The notes under the pieces are model-generated. The model was not told the DNA's origin, made no database searches, and worked only from the letters and a program-made list of their open reading frames with translations. The position numbers and the translations under genes were made by a program. Below, one piece after another: positions 26,558 through 64,000 of a stretch of 64,000 nucleotides of DNA. How positions within the stretch are numbered: position 1 is the stretch's first letter; each line of letters begins with the position of its first letter. This DNA is from Akkermansia muciniphila (GTDB lineage Bacteria > Verrucomicrobiota > Verrucomicrobiia > Verrucomicrobiales > DEV007): NCBI GenBank assembly GCA_945883495.1, contig CAMCXS010000002.1, positions 1 through 64,000 of the forward strand, given 5' to 3'.

Positions 26558-26713
26558 TCAACCCTCGTGCTTGGTCTTGGGAATACCGATCGGGCTGGTG
26601 CCCTCTTTCCACACACCGCGCTGACGGAGCAGCTTGATGCGCTCGAAACGCTTGAGGACGTTCCGCTTTTTGCCGGATCCCGAAGCTCCTTTAAGGCTGT
26701 TGTGTTGCGACAT
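26558..26713 (-). CDS. Small basic protein (Verrucomicrobia/Chlamydiae type)
   Basis: A 51-residue, strongly basic protein (MSQHNSLKG..., KKRNVLKRFERIKLLRQRG, ending IPKTKHEG). It matches the small basic protein family I know from Verrucomicrobia, Lentisphaerae and Chlamydiae (TIGR04137), whose members are thought to associate with RNA or the ribosome. GGAG lies 7 bases upstream of the ATG. Its size makes it easy to miss in automated annotation. It is a good taxonomic marker for this window. The molecular role is unproven. Confidence 0.85.
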   Translation of the reverse strand: MSQHNSLKGASGSGKKRNVLKRFERIKLLRQRGVWKEGTSPIGIPKTKHEG

Positions 26714-26799: not shown

Positions 26800-29781
26800 T
26801 CACTTCGCCGCCGAAGCCTGCGGCTTGGCCTGATCGAAGCGATAGTACATTGATTCGTATTTCTTGCGGAGGGCGTCCACTTTGCGTTGTTGCTCCTCGA
26901 GCGTCTTCTGCGTCTCGGTTTTTTCCTGAAGCAGAGATGCCACCGTGGTTTCCTTTTCCCGGGTCAGCTTGGTGCGCTCCGCAATGACTTTTGGGGTCTC
27001 CTGGGCCGTCAGAGTCGCTTTTTGGACTTCCTGGGCCGTCGATTCCACCTTGGTGAAGGTCTCCTTGATGGTCTTCTCGATCTCCGGCATTTTCCCGCTG
27101 ATCGCCTTGAGACTGCTCTCGTCGAGGGGCTCCACGCCCTCAGGCATTGGGCTCGTTTCTCCCACCAGCATGCCACTGACCGTCCGGGCGGCGAACAGCG
27201 CGAGGCCATTTTCCACCACGTCGTCCTTCGCCGTTTCGATGTATTGGTTGCCTTTCTCGATCGTGGTCTTCGCCACAACCAAGGTTTCTTCCGCCTGCGC
27301 CAGAGCTTTTTTCGCCTGGTCACGCTCGGCCAATGCGGCGCTGGCCTTCTCGTCCAAGGAGATCATTTGCTCGCGATAGTTCCCCAAGGTCTCGTTCTCG
27401 CCGTGCAGGGTCAAGTTGACCTCCGCCGCCGCCCACTTGTCCACTTGGTATTGAGCAAACCGGATATCGACTTTCGCTTTTTCCTGTTTCGCTTTGGCTG
27501 CGGACTCTGCTTGAGCCAACTGATTCAGCTTGTCGCCTGCCGCCTTGGCCGCCGCTTCCTTCGGTGCCACGTTCGCATCGGCCGCCGCCAGGGCTTTCTT
27601 CGCCCCATCAAGTTTCGCTCGAATGGCTGCCGATTCCTTCTTGGCGGAGTCGAGCGCTGCCTGCGCCGCCCCGATCGCTTTGTCCGCCGACGAGTTATCC
27701 TTGGGCAGATTGGAGACAACCAGATCCAGCGCTTTGGCCTCGACCTCAAGCTGTGGGATCTGCGCCTTGGCCTCCGCGATGGTTTTCTCCAAGCTGGCAA
27801 TCTTGGCTCCGGCGTCCCGGCGTTTGGTTTCCGCCTGCGCCACCGCGGCATCGGCCGTGCCGAGAGCGGATTTGGCTTGGGTGAGCTGAGCCTTCAGATC
27901 GGCGTTGTCTGGCAGTTGCTCCACCTGCATCTGCAACATCTTCACCTTTTGCTCCGCCTTCGCTTTTTCCCCGGCCAAGGCCTGCAATTGCTGCTCCAAC
28001 ACCGGGAACTCCTTCCGCAAGGCAGCCACATCGCCCGTTTGGCGGGTAATTGCGGCGTTGCGCTCCGCGATCAGCTTGCGCTTTTCTCCCGCTGCCGCGG
28101 TCTTCTCCGCAGCCGCCTTTTGCGCGACCGCTACCATGTTGCGGGCTTCCGCCAGCTTCGTTTCAGATTGCTTCACCAGCGTGTCCACCTGAGCGACTTG
28201 CTGTTCGCTGCTCTTCACCGCGCCCTCGGCATCCGCCTTGGCCTTCCGGGCGACCGCCAGGGCTTTGTTGGCCTCGTCGGCTGGTTTACGTGCCGCAGCC
28301 GTGGCGTCAGAGGCTTTTTTCACGTCCGCCTCCAGCGTGGGCAGTTGGCCGGTGAGCTTGGCGATGCTGTCCTTGGCTCGCTGCTGCTGCACCTGAATCG
28401 GCGGAGGATTGCTGATTAGCTCACCAACTTTGGTTCCGTCCGCCACATTCCAGACCACCAAAGATCCGTTCCAGTCGCCGCTGATGACGCGCTTGCCGTC
28501 AGACGTGAACGTCACGGAGGTCACAATATCGCTGAAACCGGTAATCTCCCGCTGCAGCGCACCATTCAGATCCCAGATTTTTACGCGATTGTCCCGACCG
28601 CAGGTCACCAGTTTGGAACCATCCGGGGAGAAATCGATGTCCTGGGCTCCGCCGCCGTGCGCCGCCCACTTCTTCAGGTTGGTGCCTTTCTGCATCTCCC
28701 ACGTCGTGACCTGCCCATCCTCGCTACACGCGGCAAGGACGTTTGAATCGGCGCGCCAGGTGATCCCGGTAACCGCCAGTTGGTGCGACTTCAGCTCGTA
28801 AAACTCGATGCCGCTCCCAGCTTCCCAAACGTAAAGATCGCCCGTCCGCCCTCCGGAGGCCAGCAGCACCCCGTCCGGACTGTATTCCAACTCCAGCAAC
28901 CAGTCCGGATGCTTCTTAATGGAGTGCAACTGCTCTCCCGTCCGGGTATCGTAGATCTTCAAATTGCGTCCCGGGCCACCCAAGGCAACGTGCCCATGAT
29001 CCGGGCTGATATCCGCCGCCAGCGCGGTGTCAAACTCCTTCCCGACCTCAATGACGCGCTCCCCGGTCTTCACGTCCCAGGCCACCGACTTGCCGAACTT
29101 GCCGCCCCGTCCACCACCCGCCACGAGCAGCGAGCCGTTGGCACTGAAGGAAATGTCCTCCGGAAATCCTTCCGGGAACGCCAGAATGCCCACTAGGTCG
29201 AGATGCTCTGACTCATAGAGCAAGACTTGCTTTTGTCCCGCGATCGCTACCAAAGGCGCCCAGGGACTTGCGGCCATGGCAGTAATCGCATTGGCCCGCG
29301 CCGTCACCACTTCCGGCTGCAAGAGAACATGCTCCGGCATCGCGGGATCTTTCGGTCGCCCCGCCGTCACCTCAACCGTCGCCGCCAAGGTGGGGCCGGT
29401 CGACTTTTTGGCCTTGCTGTCCTTGGTTTCCAAAAGGCCGCCTTCGATCCACTTCTTCAAAATCGCGATCTGGGGATCGGGAATCTTTGGCTTGTTCGGC
29501 GGCATTTTCGGCTCTTCCGCATGCGTGCAGAGAGTCACCAGACGGCTGCCGTCGGGATTCCCAGCCTTGGCCACCGCCCCACCGGAGCCACCCGCCATCG
29601 TCGCGCTGTAGGAAGTCAGATCGAGACCGCCCTTGGCCTCATCCGGGTTGTGGCAGTTCAAGCAGGCGCTTTCGAGCACCGGCAACACATGGTCCACAAA
29701 GGTGATCTTCTCTCCATCCGCGGCGCGAGAAGCCACCATCGCCGAGAGGAGAACGACGCTTCCAAAAAGGGTCTTTTTCAT
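26800..29781 (-). CDS. Cytochrome c-WD40-coiled-coil protein (planctomycete-type)
   Basis: A 993-residue exported protein. A signal peptide (1-20) is followed by a planctomycete-type cytochrome c domain with a CLNCH heme site (C40, C43, H44) and MPPNKP (~93-98). WD40 repeats run from about 160 to 460 (for example VTGITWRADSNVLAACSEDGQVTTWE and LVTCGRDNRVKIWDLNG). The last ~500 residues are an almost unbroken Ala/Lys/Glu-rich coiled coil. The heme suggests electron transfer in the periplasm, with the propeller as a docking platform. The long coiled coil may span the periplasm or form filaments. No adjacent DUF1549/DUF1501 partner gene, as often found with such proteins, is seen. Confidence 0.85.
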   Translation of the reverse strand: MKKTLFGSVVLLSAMVASRAADGEKITFVDHVLPVLESACLNCHNPDEAKGGLDLTSYSATMAGGSGGAVAKAGNPDGSRLVTLCTHAEEPKMPPNKPKIPDPQIAILKKWIEGGLLETKDSKAKKSTGPTLAATVEVTAGRPKDPAMPEHVLLQPEVVTARANAITAMAASPWAPLVAIAGQKQVLLYESEHLDLVGILAFPEGFPEDISFSANGSLLVAGGGRGGKFGKSVAWDVKTGERVIEVGKEFDTALAADISPDHGHVALGGPGRNLKIYDTRTGEQLHSIKKHPDWLLELEYSPDGVLLASGGRTGDLYVWEAGSGIEFYELKSHQLAVTGITWRADSNVLAACSEDGQVTTWEMQKGTNLKKWAAHGGGAQDIDFSPDGSKLVTCGRDNRVKIWDLNGALQREITGFSDIVTSVTFTSDGKRVISGDWNGSLVVWNVADGTKVGELISNPPPIQVQQQRAKDSIAKLTGQLPTLEADVKKASDATAAARKPADEANKALAVARKAKADAEGAVKSSEQQVAQVDTLVKQSETKLAEARNMVAVAQKAAAEKTAAAGEKRKLIAERNAAITRQTGDVAALRKEFPVLEQQLQALAGEKAKAEQKVKMLQMQVEQLPDNADLKAQLTQAKSALGTADAAVAQAETKRRDAGAKIASLEKTIAEAKAQIPQLEVEAKALDLVVSNLPKDNSSADKAIGAAQAALDSAKKESAAIRAKLDGAKKALAAADANVAPKEAAAKAAGDKLNQLAQAESAAKAKQEKAKVDIRFAQYQVDKWAAAEVNLTLHGENETLGNYREQMISLDEKASAALAERDQAKKALAQAEETLVVAKTTIEKGNQYIETAKDDVVENGLALFAARTVSGMLVGETSPMPEGVEPLDESSLKAISGKMPEIEKTIKETFTKVESTAQEVQKATLTAQETPKVIAERTKLTREKETTVASLLQEKTETQKTLEEQQRKVDALRKKYESMYYRFDQAKPQASAAK

Positions 29782-29958: not shown

Positions 29959-30975
29959 TTAGTTCCCGTCGAACAGATTGCCCAAACCGCCGAGGATGGA
30001 GCCTTCATCCACCGATGCTCCGCCCACGTTCGTTTGCGGAGCCGCGCGGAAAATCCGATCCGCCAAGCGCGAGAACGGCAGACTCTGCAGCCACACCGTG
30101 CCGTGCCCTCGCAAGGTGGCCAGAAAGAGCCCTTCGCCACCGAATATCATCGACTTGAGATTGCCCGCCCGTTCGATGTCGTATTGAACCCCGGCCTCGA
30201 ACGCCACGATGCATCCTGTATCGACGCGCAGAACCTCGCCGCGCAATTCCCGGCGGATCACCGTGCCACCGGCGTGAAGGAAGGCCAAACCGTCGCCGCT
30301 GAGCCGCTGCAAAATGAACCCTTCCCCGCCAAACAGCCCGGCCCCCAGCCGCCGCTGAAAAGCGATGCTGATTTGAGTTCCCTTGGCGGCACACAGGAAC
30401 GAGTCCTTCTGGCAAAGAATTTCGCCGGTGAGCTGGCTCATATCCACCGGGACAATCTTGCCCGGATACGGAGCGGCGAAAGCGACCCGGCGCTTCCTGG
30501 CTCCGGTGTTCGTGAAATGCGTCATGAAAATGGATTCCCCGGTGAGCATCCGTTTGCCCACATTCAGGAGCTTGCCCATGATCCCTTCGTTTGGGCTGGA
30601 GCCGTCCCCCATCTTTGTCTCAAAGACGATCCCATCTTCCATGTAGTTCATCGCCCCGGCCTCGGCGACCACGGTCTCGCCCGGATCCAGCTCCACTTCG
30701 ACGAGTTGCAGATCGTCTCCAAAGATCTCGTAATCGACCTCATGACAGCGGCGTTGTGGATGAGGCGGAGCCACATGCATCGGCGGCAAGGGCGGAGGCG
30801 TGCCGGTGGAAAAGAGCTGGGGAAACACCTCGCCCGCCGGAGCCCAACCCGCCATCCCCGGCCTCCAGAGCAAGGTCTGCGGAGAAACGCTGCCCGCCCG
30901 CACCAAGTCATGAAGCGCCTCCTCGGACGCAGTTTCCGCTTTTCCTCCGAGACCGGTGTAATGCCACTCCTGCAT
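29959..30975 (-). CDS. AIM24/TIGR00266-family protein with GYF_2 domain
   Basis: A 338-residue protein. The first ~55 residues form a GYF_2-type domain ([37 protein letters not shown]). After a proline-rich linker comes an AIM24/TIGR00266 beta-roll domain with repeated [15 protein letters not shown]-, [13 protein letters not shown]- and [10 protein letters not shown]-type turns. The family is widespread but poorly understood; relatives are linked to membrane organisation in mitochondria. No signal peptide. The ATG at 30975 has AGGAAA about 11 bases upstream; an upstream TTG is unlikely. Confidence 0.85.
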
Positions 30976-31089
30976 CCGGAGACTATTTCCTGACAAAACA
31001 GCCCAGTCAACTTCACGGACCAGCCTTTCCGCTTGCCTGAAGGCCGGGACGATACGTCAAATAGAAGCGCCTGCCCGGCGCCGTCGCTC

Positions 31090-34580: not shown

Positions 34581-35375
34581 ATGCCCAGCACCGACTCCCT
34601 CACGATTACCTTTCTCGGCACCGGCACGTCCTTGGGCATCCCCGTGATCGGTTGCGACTGCGCCGTTTGCACCTCGCCCGACCCCAGAAACAAGCGCTCG
34701 CGGTCGTCGATCTACGTCCAAACCGGGCAGACCTCGTTCGTGATCGATACCGGCCCGGATTTCCGCTCGCAATGCCTCCGGGAAAATGTCCGGCGCGTGG
34801 ATGCTGCGGTCTACACGCATCCGCACAGCGACCACATCATGGGGTTCGATGACCTAAGGCAGTTCTGTTTCGGAGAACACGCTACCATGCCGGTTTACTC
34901 GACGCCCGAGTGCCTTGAAACGATCCAACTGGCATTCGCCTTCGCGTTCGACCGGGCCAATTGGAACCCGGTCTACCTGAAACCGGTCGCTTGGCCCGTC
35001 ACGGGTCCGTTCGAGATCTCGGATGTCCGCCTCACCCCACTAGAGGTGGTGCATGGCAAGGTTCGCACTGTCGGCTATTTGCTCGAAACCGGGAATCGCC
35101 GCCTCGCCGCGTACATTCCAGATTGCAAACACATCCCGGAATCGTCCATCGAACTCATGAAGGGCGTCGATAGCCTCATCATCGACTGCCTGCGACTCCA
35201 GCCGCATTGGACCCACTTGAGCCTTGAGGAAGCTTTGGCGGTGCGAGAAGCCGTAGGGCCCCGTCAAACATGGTTGACCCACATCTCGGACCGCCTCGAT
35301 CACGCCAGCTTGGCAGCCGGACTGGCAGACGGTGTCCAGGTGGCCTACGATGGATTGAAATTGCACTTCGCGTGA
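34581..35375 (+). CDS. MBL-fold metallo-hydrolase (PhnP-like)
   Basis: A 264-residue metallo-beta-lactamase-fold hydrolase with the metal-binding HPHSDH motif (~residue 79), FLGTGTSLGIPVIGCDCAVC at the N-terminus, VVHGKVRTVGY (~158) and late LTHISDRLDH (~235). The Cys pair after GC-x-C resembles PhnP-type cyclic phosphodiesterases, which carry a structural zinc. The substrate is probably a phosphodiester. It is divergent from recN. Its TGA overlaps a possible GTG start of the next gene. Confidence 0.88.
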   Translation: MPSTDSLTITFLGTGTSLGIPVIGCDCAVCTSPDPRNKRSRSSIYVQTGQTSFVIDTGPDFRSQCLRENVRRVDAAVYTHPHSDHIMGFDDLRQFCFGEHATMPVYSTPECLETIQLAFAFAFDRANWNPVYLKPVAWPVTGPFEISDVRLTPLEVVHGKVRTVGYLLETGNRRLAAYIPDCKHIPESSIELMKGVDSLIIDCLRLQPHWTHLSLEEALAVREAVGPRQTWLTHISDRLDHASLAAGLADGVQVAYDGLKLHFA

Positions 35376-35389
35376 ATCACATTCGCCCC

Positions 35390-37000
35390 ATGCCAGCCTT
35401 GCTCTTGTTCCGCCTCGCGGCTCGGCTCGGCTTTGCCCTGGCCGCCTGCTTGCTGACATTTTTCGGGTCCGCCACCGCTTTCGCGCAAGATGCCCCCGCC
35501 TCGTCGCAGCCGCCGCTCACCAAAGCGTCGCTCTACTCCCCGACCACCCTGGTGATCTTCAACCGAACCGTGCCCGACTCGGAATCCCTCGCCTGCTATT
35601 ACGCCGCCGCCCGTCAAATCCCCGCCCGTAATCTCATTCCCCTCGACTGCTCGAGCGATGAGGAAATCACCCGGACGCAATACCACGAAACCATCGCCGA
35701 ACCGCTCCGCAAAACGTTCCTCAACGAAGGCTGGTGGATGCCCCACCGCGACCTCTCCACGGGCGCTCAAAGCCTGCGCAGTGAGTTCCATATCCTCGCC
35801 TTGATGCATGGGATTCCTCTGCGCATCAAAGATGATTCCGGCCGGGCCCCAGACTCAGAACCGCTGTCCGGCAACGGAGCCAGCGTGGACTCGGAATTGG
35901 CCACCCTGGGCCGCCCCGGCACCACACTGAAAGGTCCCATTCCAAATCCTTACCACCGCAGCGAGTCCGCTTTTCACGCCGCCCAGCTCCCCATGCAACT
36001 CGTCGGGAGAATCGATGCCCCCTCCTTGAATCGCTGCCGCGCCATGATCGACGAAGCGATTCTTGCGGAAACCAACGGGCTCTGGGGGCAAGCCTACATC
36101 GACCTAGATGAACGCCAACCGCTCGGCAACGACTGGCTGCGCGCCGCCGCCGATGCTTGGCGCAAACTCGGCATCCCCGTTACCGTGGATGTGCAGCCCG
36201 GAACCTTCCCCAGCAACTACCCCATGCGCGACCCGATCCTCTACTTCGGCTGGCACGCGGAGCAAGTGAACGGCCCCTTTCTCAACCCCGCCTTCAAGTT
36301 TCAACCCGGTGCCGTAGCTTGTCACATCCACTCGTTGAACGCCACCACCGTCCGCTCCACTACCCGCAATTGGGCTGGCCCGCTCCTCGCCAGAGGCGCC
36401 GCCGCCGTCCTCGGCACCGTCGATGAGCCCTATCTGCAACTCAGTCACGACCTCGGTATCTTCTCCGATCGACTTTCCAGCGGCTTAACCTTCATTGAGA
36501 GCGCTTACGCATCCACCGACTCCCTCTCCTGGATGACCGTCGCCGTCGGAGATCCGCTCTACTGCCCCTTCCCGGCTCCCCGGCGAGCGCTCGACACCGC
36601 TCAATTCGCCAATGATCAATGGACCCCCTACAAGATCCTTCGCTTAGCCTACGAAAGGTGGGGCGAGAGCAAACCTCTACCCGTTTCCGGCTTGTTCTAC
36701 AAATTGGAGATGGCCAGCGCGAAGAAGGAGTTCCCCGAACTCATGGAACACCTTGCCCTCGCCGCGATCGAACAAGGCGATGTCGAAGACGCCCGGGTGC
36801 AGTTCCTCCGCGCGAAGACCGCCTATCAAGATCCCCGGGACAAGCTACGCATGGTTCTCCACATCGGCTCGATGGAATGGGGCGCCAACGAACGGCTCGC
36901 CGCCCTGCAGACCTTCCGCGGAGCAGCCGACGAATTCGCGGACCTCAGCGAGGCAAAGGCAGCTCGCGAATTGGTCGAAAGGGTTAGCAAACCAGAATAA
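35390..37000 (+). CDS. TIGR03790-family secreted protein with TPR-like tail
   Basis: A 536-residue exported protein: signal peptide (~1-30), then a TIGR03790-like region (VIFNRTVPDSESLACYYAAARQIP, ILALMHGIPLRIKD, YFGWHAEQVNGPF, GAAAVLGTVDEPYL, FIESAYASTDSLSWMTVAVGDPLYCPF). The last ~110 residues are helical and TPR-like. The family is common in Verrucomicrobia, Planctomycetes and Acidobacteria and has no settled function; a caspase/gingipain-like fold is conceivable from the alternating strand/helix pattern. A GTG at 35372 overlaps the upstream stop and is an alternative start. Confidence 0.8.
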   Translation: MPALLLFRLAARLGFALAACLLTFFGSATAFAQDAPASSQPPLTKASLYSPTTLVIFNRTVPDSESLACYYAAARQIPARNLIPLDCSSDEEITRTQYHETIAEPLRKTFLNEGWWMPHRDLSTGAQSLRSEFHILALMHGIPLRIKDDSGRAPDSEPLSGNGASVDSELATLGRPGTTLKGPIPNPYHRSESAFHAAQLPMQLVGRIDAPSLNRCRAMIDEAILAETNGLWGQAYIDLDERQPLGNDWLRAAADAWRKLGIPVTVDVQPGTFPSNYPMRDPILYFGWHAEQVNGPFLNPAFKFQPGAVACHIHSLNATTVRSTTRNWAGPLLARGAAAVLGTVDEPYLQLSHDLGIFSDRLSSGLTFIESAYASTDSLSWMTVAVGDPLYCPFPAPRRALDTAQFANDQWTPYKILRLAYERWGESKPLPVSGLFYKLEMASAKKEFPELMEHLALAAIEQGDVEDARVQFLRAKTAYQDPRDKLRMVLHIGSMEWGANERLAALQTFRGAADEFADLSEAKAARELVERVSKPE

Positions 37001-63327: not shown

Positions 63328-64000
63328 ATGCGGATCGTTGAAAACACGCCGGTCCCGGCCACGTGTGAGGAGCGTTTGTCCGCGTTTTCCTCCCCCTCCC
63401 CTTTGTCCTCGTTCCGGACAGCCCTTCTCCTGATGGGTTGCTCCTTCGCTGCGGCTCTGGCCCAAGAACCCAACCCCGAAGCCGTTGCCCGCGCTGCCGC
63501 AAAAGAGACCTTCGACAAGCAGGTCGTTCCCTTCCTGCAGACCTACTGCGCCGCGTGCCATGACAAAAAGCAGAAGGGCGGCGTCACCTTCATGTATGCC
63601 AAGCGCAGCCCCGGCTCCCCGGCGTTCCGCAGCGTTTGGAAAAGCGCGCTAAGCCAAGTCGAGACGGAGGCCATGCCGCCGGAAGACGAAAAACAACCCA
63701 CTCCCGAAGAACGCAAAATGTTCGAGGATTGGGTGAACGGACTGAAATATCTCAGCCCCAAAGATCCCGGCGCCTTCGTCATCCGCCGCCTCAACAAGAC
63801 CGAATACGGAAACACCCTCCACGATCTCTTTGGCGTCAGCCCTCAGATCGCCAAGGAACTGCCCGACGAAGTCTCTGGCGCAGGTTATCTCAACTCACTC
63901 TCTCCCGTCCTCATGGAGCAATATCTCGGGATCGCCAACGAGGTCCTCGATGAGATCCTCGCTCCCGAAGACCAGCCGCCCACCGAGATCCAAGCGCAAC
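63328..64000 (+). CDS. Planctomycete-type cytochrome with DUF1587 start, partial (3' end outside)
   Basis: The frame is open from ATG 63328 to the window end (224 codons). A signal-type region ends near residue 46 with a possible lipobox (LLMGC). A cytochrome c domain with CAACH (C74, C77, H78; bases from 63547) and AMPPEDE follows. Next comes a DUF1587-like start (RRLNKTEYGNTLHDLFGV), the usual N-terminal module of DUF1592-family proteins. An ATG at 63433 is a possible later start. The missing C-terminus should carry DUF1592/1588/1585. It is a second member of the family seen at 55701-58013. Confidence 0.85.
   Translation, partial: MRIVENTPVPATCEERLSAFSSPSPLSSFRTALLLMGCSFAAALAQEPNPEAVARAAAKETFDKQVVPFLQTYCAACHDKKQKGGVTFMYAKRSPGSPAFRSVWKSALSQVETEAMPPEDEKQPTPEERKMFEDWVNGLKYLSPKDPGAFVIRRLNKTEYGNTLHDLFGVSPQIAKELPDEVSGAGYLNSLSPVLMEQYLGIANEVLDEILAPEDQPPTEIQAQ

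Follow-up and report, generated by a model that had tools for sequence, protein, structure and literature searches.

Introduction

Proteins of the PVC group that carry a PSCyt1 domain (PF07635), some of them together with WD40 repeats, have been described within PSCyt/PSD architectures in the available text of PMC5615132. Related background comes from two further sources in their accessible parts: DUF1501 and sigma-70 annotations are common among the neighbours of planctomycete WD40 genes (PMC5587647), and a PSD1/PSC2 protein has a proposed extracytoplasmic function (ECF) regulator that is up-regulated under stress (PMC2754498). Here we describe a protein of this kind encoded in a stretch of 64,000 nucleotides from Akkermansia muciniphila (assembly GCA_945883495.1, contig CAMCXS010000002.1, positions 1 to 64,000), referred to as the window. 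A single open reading frame (ORF) of 993 amino acids with an ATG start occupies positions 26800-29781 on the minus strand. Like the described proteins, the window protein combines PSCyt1 and WD40 in one chain, and DUF1501- or PPC-type genes lie near 16 of 29 family loci. Unlike those PSCyt/PSD proteins, it adds a predicted two-hairpin coil of ~515 residues after the propeller; the word "coiled" is absent from the main text of PMC5615132.

As judged from structure models and from the comparison of relatives, this coil is probably folded into two antiparallel hairpins that meet at the propeller and is not one rod of 70-80 nm. The family type is already known, and what the literature searched suggests to be new is the pair of hairpin arms; no coiled-coil PSCyt1-WD40 protein was found described in that literature, most subscription papers and all supplements being outside its coverage.

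Predicted helices and tips of the coil

Residues 461-993 are rich in alanine (20.6%), lysine (12%) and glutamate (9.8%). AlphaFold2 modelling of the full chain, from a 25-sequence alignment, gave helices at residues 462-589, 592-622, 627-873 and 888-978, with a mean predicted local distance difference test (pLDDT) of 78.7 and a predicted template modelling score (pTM) of 0.55. The coil alone, modelled from 30 sequences, gave helices at 462-622, 627-872, 888-896 and 898-978 (mean pLDDT 85.6, pTM 0.41). Both models break at the same two main places, residues 623-626 and after residue 872. The gene and the parts of its coil are as follows:

26800-29781, minus strand: whole gene (993 amino acids), coding for signal peptide, PSCyt1, WD40 propeller and predicted two-hairpin coiled coil
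27916-28398, minus strand: helix A, residues 462-622, predicted first strand of hairpin 1, with a break at 590-591 in one of the two models (AlphaFold2, heptad period of 3.5)
27904-27915, minus strand: tip 1, residues 623-626, within the turn LPDNAD (AlphaFold2, midpoint position)
27163-27903, minus strand: helix B, residues 627-873, 247 residues, ~37 nm, predicted spine common to both hairpins (AlphaFold2)
27415-27435, minus strand: mid-coil motif W783-AAAEV-N789 (AAxxN in the family), with a predicted place at the base of the propeller (conservation)
27121-27162, minus strand: tip 2 loop, residues 874-887, of low confidence and variable among relatives (AlphaFold2, alignment)
26848-27120, minus strand: helix C, residues 888-978, predicted returning strand of hairpin 2, with the conserved Y975 near its end (AlphaFold2, alignment)

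The summed lengths of helices A and C (161 + 91 residues) come close to that of helix B (247), which is what a central spine B with the other two helices folded against it would give. In the full model pLDDT is ~90 across residues 740-850, and the heme domain is poorly modelled, with values below 50 in parts. The 3.5-residue periodicity of large apolar residues exceeds the 95% shuffle threshold in three of the four helical segments (12.3 versus 5.3, 11.4 versus 5.8 and 11.8 versus 5.1). Conservation along the coil is concentrated at its start, in the mid-region W783-AAAEV-N789 and at its end up to Y975, and the middles of the arms are poorly conserved. The AlphaFold2 models show no compact bundle of short, broken helices, the outcome that the initial annotation had said would speak against a long coil.

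The structural neighbours of the coil model are to be read with caution, since by the tool's own warning Z values of this size are frequent among helical models, and since long helices match many coiled coils: a coiled-coil segment of SMC (5xg2; Z 15.5, 236 residues aligned, root-mean-square deviation (rmsd) 5.8, model residues 48-285), a chemoreceptor hairpin (3g67_B; Z 12.6, 212 aligned, rmsd 4.5, model 57-274) and the Rad50 rod (5gox_A; Z 10.3, 165 aligned, rmsd 6.8, model 334-502). The first two alignments have their centres near tip 1 (model 167-170), and the centre of the third, at 418, coincides with tip 2. Foldseek with the coil model gave no match at E ≤0.001, the best being PrgA (6z9l; E 2.6e-3, TMq 0.37).

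Midpoint turns across relatives

If the coil is an antiparallel hairpin, its turn should fall at the midpoint at any length. The segment of hairpin 1 was taken from residue 462 to the AAxxN motif, which is present in three families named after the labels of the search tool: f1, to which the window protein belongs, f2 and f3. The window protein and 80 loci were sought, and 76 of these 81 proteins were recovered (missing: L072, L121, L122, L123 and L126); eight more had no anchor (L058, L064, L069, L099, L130, L132, L133 and L140), and L137 was skipped in the proline and motif tests because of a run of X. Forty further f2/f3 regions had been hand-picked from the matches listed in the order-wide draw of genomes described below, and the coil comparison covers the recovered proteins, a subset of the 219 matching genomes in that draw.

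Hairpin 1 segments measure 322-467 residues in f1, 273-281 in f2 (389 in one protein that contains a run of X) and 234-277 in f3. In f1 the strongest helix-breaking window falls at most 5 residues from the midpoint in 24 of 31 proteins, and the remaining seven, the window protein included, have a turn-like midpoint motif by eye, the weakest being that of L065, which is without proline. Proline is found no more than 6 residues from the midpoint in 30/31 f1 proteins (5.4 expected), in 6/12 of f2 (2.9) and in 17/23 of f3 (9.3). In the 67 segments there are 28 occurrences of the turn motif P[ED][DENQ]; 23 of them fall between 0.48 and 0.52 of segment length, in segments of ten different sizes (234 to 462 residues). 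Since the motif was picked after some tips had been seen and the proteins are related, the binomial value is not a probability. It must be noted that a segment of 466 residues is common to 14 of the 31 f1 proteins, so that the independent evidence lies in the different lengths and not in the number of proteins. Insertion of whole heptads on both strands was considered and rejected as an account of these lengths: 378, 406 and 420 and, separately, 381 and 465 differ by multiples of 14, but 321, 464 and 466 misfit.

The second turn, residues 874-887, is the midpoint of the remainder of the coil (783-975) in the window protein, and for hairpin 2 the strongest breaker lies within 10% of the segment length from the midpoint in 29/30 f1 proteins. 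Helical hairpins, as read from the models and the alignments, are well supported in f1 and less so in f2 and f3.

The initial annotation had estimated a reach of some 70 nm for a continuous coil and named lying along the membrane, folding back or forming fibres as ways to accommodate it. Folding back is favoured because a helix-breaking tip is kept midway between conserved anchors in relatives of very different coil length, with a second turn at the midpoint of the remainder. The ~70 nm reach is not favoured, given the helix breaks at 623-626 and after 872 and the midpoint turns across lengths, and for the same reasons a single rod of 70-80 nm was discarded as the leading model.

Predicted dimensions

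At 0.1485 nm per residue the arms of the window protein would measure ~24 and ~13 nm, and the rod as a whole, set by the 247-residue helix B, ~37 nm, roughly half of the reach first estimated. Six examples from the three families range from ~17 to 35 nm for arm 1 and, as upper limits, from ~7 to 36 nm for arm 2. In f3 (for example L043:1477-5025) the arm proportions look reversed, with a shorter segment ahead of AAxxN, giving a first arm of ~17-21 nm, and a longer second part, giving an arm of up to ~36 nm. The ordinary Gram-negative periplasm is roughly 20-30 nm wide, and a rod of ~37 nm exceeds this, so it would lie along the membrane or wall, or in a widened periplasm. Planctomycetes, a related phylum, can have a greatly enlarged periplasm, according to the available part of PMC5394234.

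Domain order of the chain and neighbouring genes

Pfam, the motif scan and AlphaFold2 bear out the architecture first read from the letters alone, that is, one apparently exported chain with a single-CxxCH heme domain, a WD40 propeller and a coil of ~500 residues. The parts preceding the coil are:

29719-29781, minus strand: signal peptide, residues 1-21 (by eye, Sec rules)
29494-29664, minus strand: PSCyt1 domain, residues 40-96 (Pfam, 48.5 bits against a cut-off of 22)
29650-29664, minus strand: heme-attachment motif CxxCH, here CLNCH, residues 40-44 (invariant in 25/25)
29503-29505, minus strand: Met93 of MPP, putative second axial heme ligand (invariant in 25/25)
28414-29304, minus strand: seven-bladed WD40 propeller, residues 160-456 (Pfam repeats, AlphaFold2, structure alignment)

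We take the N-terminus, MKKTLFGSVVLLSAMVASRA-ADG, to be a Sec signal peptide, judged by eye. Membership of PSCyt1 (PF07635) is given by the Pfam score listed above, and CxxCH occurs once in the chain. Residues C40, C43, H44, M93, P94 and P95 are invariant in all 25 aligned proteins, as is much of the propeller, and the conservation of M93 makes it the likely second heme ligand. Between the PSCyt1 domain and the coil, Pfam found WD40 repeats, and residues 162-456 superpose on a solved seven-bladed symmetric propeller with Z 39.9 over 285 of 286 residues (rmsd 2.0). In a sequence search of the PDB, the 60 listed of 572 matches cover propeller residues alone.

An ORF antisense to the coil (26887-28419, plus strand) was taken as a shadow frame, and the stretch 26560-26712, which gave no NCBIfam match at ≤0.001, was left unused. 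The neighbouring gene at 29959-30996 (minus strand) joins a GYF_2 to an AIM24 domain (Pfam). Further away, 35270-37000 (plus strand) encodes a member of the TIGR03790 family (326 bits, cut-off 67) without a Pfam match at 0.01, and near the end of the window a weak second PSCyt1 match (63547-63687, plus strand; 27 bits, over the cut-off) lies in an open frame of 712 amino acids.

Family and distribution

The source genome comprises 6.46 Mb in 206 contigs and has 54 PSCyt1 matches. A scan of species genomes with the window protein, which detects close relatives only, yielded 24 loci, every one of them under a title naming Verrucomicrobia/Verrucomicrobiota or a subgroup. In a draw from the phylum, 7 of 194 genomes matched at 1e-30, the source genome among the seven; in the draw from the order, 219 of 386 genomes matched, spread over 38 of 50 genera. 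The best E value was above 1e-100 in 11 of these 219, and such weaker matches may in some cases be coil-less paralogues. The alignments indicate that the chain architecture is not a product of chance, because relatives were found and 25 proteins can be aligned along the chain with invariant heme and MPP residues. The window protein probably belongs to a widespread heme-protein system of the Verrucomicrobiota.

Partner genes and co-occurrence

Among 29 loci of relatives, a DUF1501-type gene (cluster F1) was present in 14, a PPC-type gene (F2) in 12, and either or both in 16, the last count being a lower bound as some fetched flanks were short. These assignments rest on a Pfam check of one member per neighbour cluster. 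In 13 of the 14 the DUF1501-type gene and the target are transcribed divergently and are adjacent or one gene apart. At one locus (L055) the gene after the DUF1501/PPC-type pair encodes PSCyt1-PSCyt2-PSD1 (Pfam), and two others (L043 and L045) have a gene for PSCyt2-PSD1 or PSD1 upstream, in the same orientation.

The source genome contains matches to these partners as well, the best being a DUF1501 gene at C3:17777-19060 (73%), a PPC gene at C3:19108-21564 (47%) and a PSCyt1-PSCyt2-PSD1 gene at C67:588-3377 (63%). Two other genomes of the genus, among the matches listed, likewise have the PPC orthologue on another contig. Over the 386 genomes, in counts that ignore kinship and carry no tree correction, family and PPC orthologue occur together in 199, the family alone in 20, the PPC orthologue alone in 6 and neither in 161. 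When restricted to the window protein's own family and to genomes at least 90% complete (n=43), the figures are 35, 1, 1 and 6, respectively, which argues that the link is not just joint absence from distant genomes. In 119 genomes among the matches listed, the two genes lie within 12 kb in 61, farther apart on the same contig in 6 and on different contigs in 52.

A fusion in the source genome unites PSCyt1, WD40, PSCyt2 and PSD1 in one chain of 1707 amino acids (L117:1468-6588, minus strand), with a DUF1501-like gene adjoining. The same genome holds a paralogous cassette in which a coil-less PSCyt1-WD40 protein of 458 amino acids is encoded next to genes for DUF1501, PSCyt2-PSD1 and a protein resembling PPC (24.7 bits, short of the 25.9 cut-off). 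The link to the partner system is carried by co-occurrence and the fusion.

Two side observations concern such gene sets. The cassette at L118 (and L032) contains sigma-70 region 2, a Laminin_G_3 protein, coil-less PSCyt1-WD40, DUF1501, a PPC-like protein and PSCyt2-PSD1. At L033:1438-4188 (plus strand) a PSCyt1-WD40 protein of 916 amino acids, whose C-terminal half is not coiled-coil-like by eye, is encoded directly after a gene matching PSCyt2-PSD1.

Discussion

We consider it somewhat more probable than an even chance that the window protein is the WD40-heme subunit of a PSCyt/PSD/DUF1501 envelope complex, a hub whose predicted arms would serve as spacers or tethers. In such a complex the exported monoheme protein would be periplasmic, the PSCyt1 heme would pass or sense electrons, and the propeller would dock partner proteins. 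Helix A would pack on the first 160 residues of helix B and helix C on the last 90, so that the start of the coil, the AAxxN motif and the end of the coil would come together beneath the propeller, from which two arms of ~24 and ~13 nm would extend. As spacers or tethers, these arms may keep the heme-propeller hub at a distance from other components of the envelope or position it between them. A bolder version, which we regard as unlikely, has the propeller and heme at a conserved three-way junction from which two independently length-tuned antiparallel arms link PSCyt/PSD complexes over tens of nanometres, as a regular array that transfers electrons or processes polymers.

Several observations weigh against the two-hairpin envelope hub, in addition to the limits set out above on the Z values, the turn motif and the co-occurrence counts. 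Strand pairing is deduced from models, alignments and midpoint turns and was not seen directly, the pTM is low in both models (0.55 and 0.41), and pLDDT over residues 601-700 is 60-77 in the full model as against 80-88 in the coil-alone model. In the segment 783-873 the 3.5-residue period is below the 95% shuffle level (2.6 versus 5.2). The strongest breaker of the window protein itself is found at 0.72 of its segment, its midpoint turn being weaker; in f3 it is mostly at ~0.65-0.70 and lies within 10 residues of the midpoint in 1/23 proteins, in f2 in 4/13. For hairpin 2 of f3 it is within 10% of the length from the midpoint in 7/23, and L047, the lone protein from another order, fits neither hairpin test. 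On the genomic side, 13 of the 29 loci have neither a DUF1501- nor a PPC-type gene within the fetched flank, some flanks being short, and in the source genome the partners are on other contigs (C3 and C67), not beside the window gene. As a coil-less paralogue occurs in a comparable cassette, the coil is dispensable for such a system. Heme binding, export, partner binding and activity are putative.

Other shapes can be envisaged for the coil. A continuous, parallel and dimeric coiled coil of ~530 residues, reaching 70-80 nm as a stalk or fibre, would agree with heptad periodicity across much of the region and with proline-free stretches of at least 224 residues in 14 of the 25 proteins. The longest such stretch in the window protein is, however, 137 residues, both AlphaFold2 models interrupt the helix at the two tips, and a turn retained at the midpoint as total length changes is not predicted by a parallel coil; this arrangement appears quite unlikely. 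A compact bundle, or helices wrapping the propeller, with the midpoint turn as another kind of helical hairpin, is improbable: the prolines and glycines within the helical region, the short 590-591 break in one model and the low pTM are in its favour, but it has to accommodate a single helix of 247 residues with pLDDT of ~90 over 740-850, and the better structural alignments are to extended rods (SMC, chemoreceptor and Rad50).

Two further explanations concern what the coil is for. Arms acting as a molecular ruler or bridge from the inner to the outer membrane would suit an apparently exported chain with a long rod, and PSCyt products are predicted to be periplasmic or cytoplasmic in the available text of PMC5615132. 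In the six examples measured, however, no arm length is conserved (arm 1 ~17 to 35 nm, arm 2 ~7 to 36 nm), which argues against a ruler between two membranes, and no membrane-anchor or wall-binding domain is found among the 25 listed of 38 Pfam families, so that we hold this explanation to be unlikely too. That the coil has no particular role and is a low-complexity extension under drift, as the poorly conserved arm middles, the variable length and the existence of a coil-less paralogue might suggest, seems rather unlikely when the coil start, the AAxxN region and the coil end are conserved and the turn is maintained at the midpoint.

The two-hairpin envelope hub offers a predicted shape of measurable size and, together with partner genes that are identified even if dispersed, a concrete handle on the system. 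If true, it would also be a case of coiled-coil strands that pair within an exported protein and grow in step over evolution.

Comparison with known coiled-coil rods

Enterococcal PrgA (6z9l), a surface protein with a long exported coiled-coil stalk, is the best Foldseek row for the coil model. Its rmsd values of 42.7 and 33.5 amount to no real superposition, and its head domains differ from those of the window protein. Like the predicted coil, the chemoreceptor hairpin (2ch7, 3g67) is long and antiparallel and turns close to the middle of the stretch that aligns, but the window protein is apparently exported and the arm lengths of its family vary widely; no chemoreceptor signalling domain is found among the 25 listed of 38 Pfam families. 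A relative of SMC was considered and rejected, as the weak matches of the coil score far below the cut-offs of NCBIfam TIGR02168 (52.7 versus 567.35 bits) and TIGR02169 (28.4 versus 729.4). The likeness to the arms of SMC and Rad50 (5xg2, 5gox, 6h2x) would be one of form: these have a long intramolecular antiparallel coiled coil, and the alignment of the model with 5xg2 and the midpoint turns suggest one for the window protein, which, unlike them, is apparently exported, carries a propeller at the base and would extend two arms that have one helix in common.

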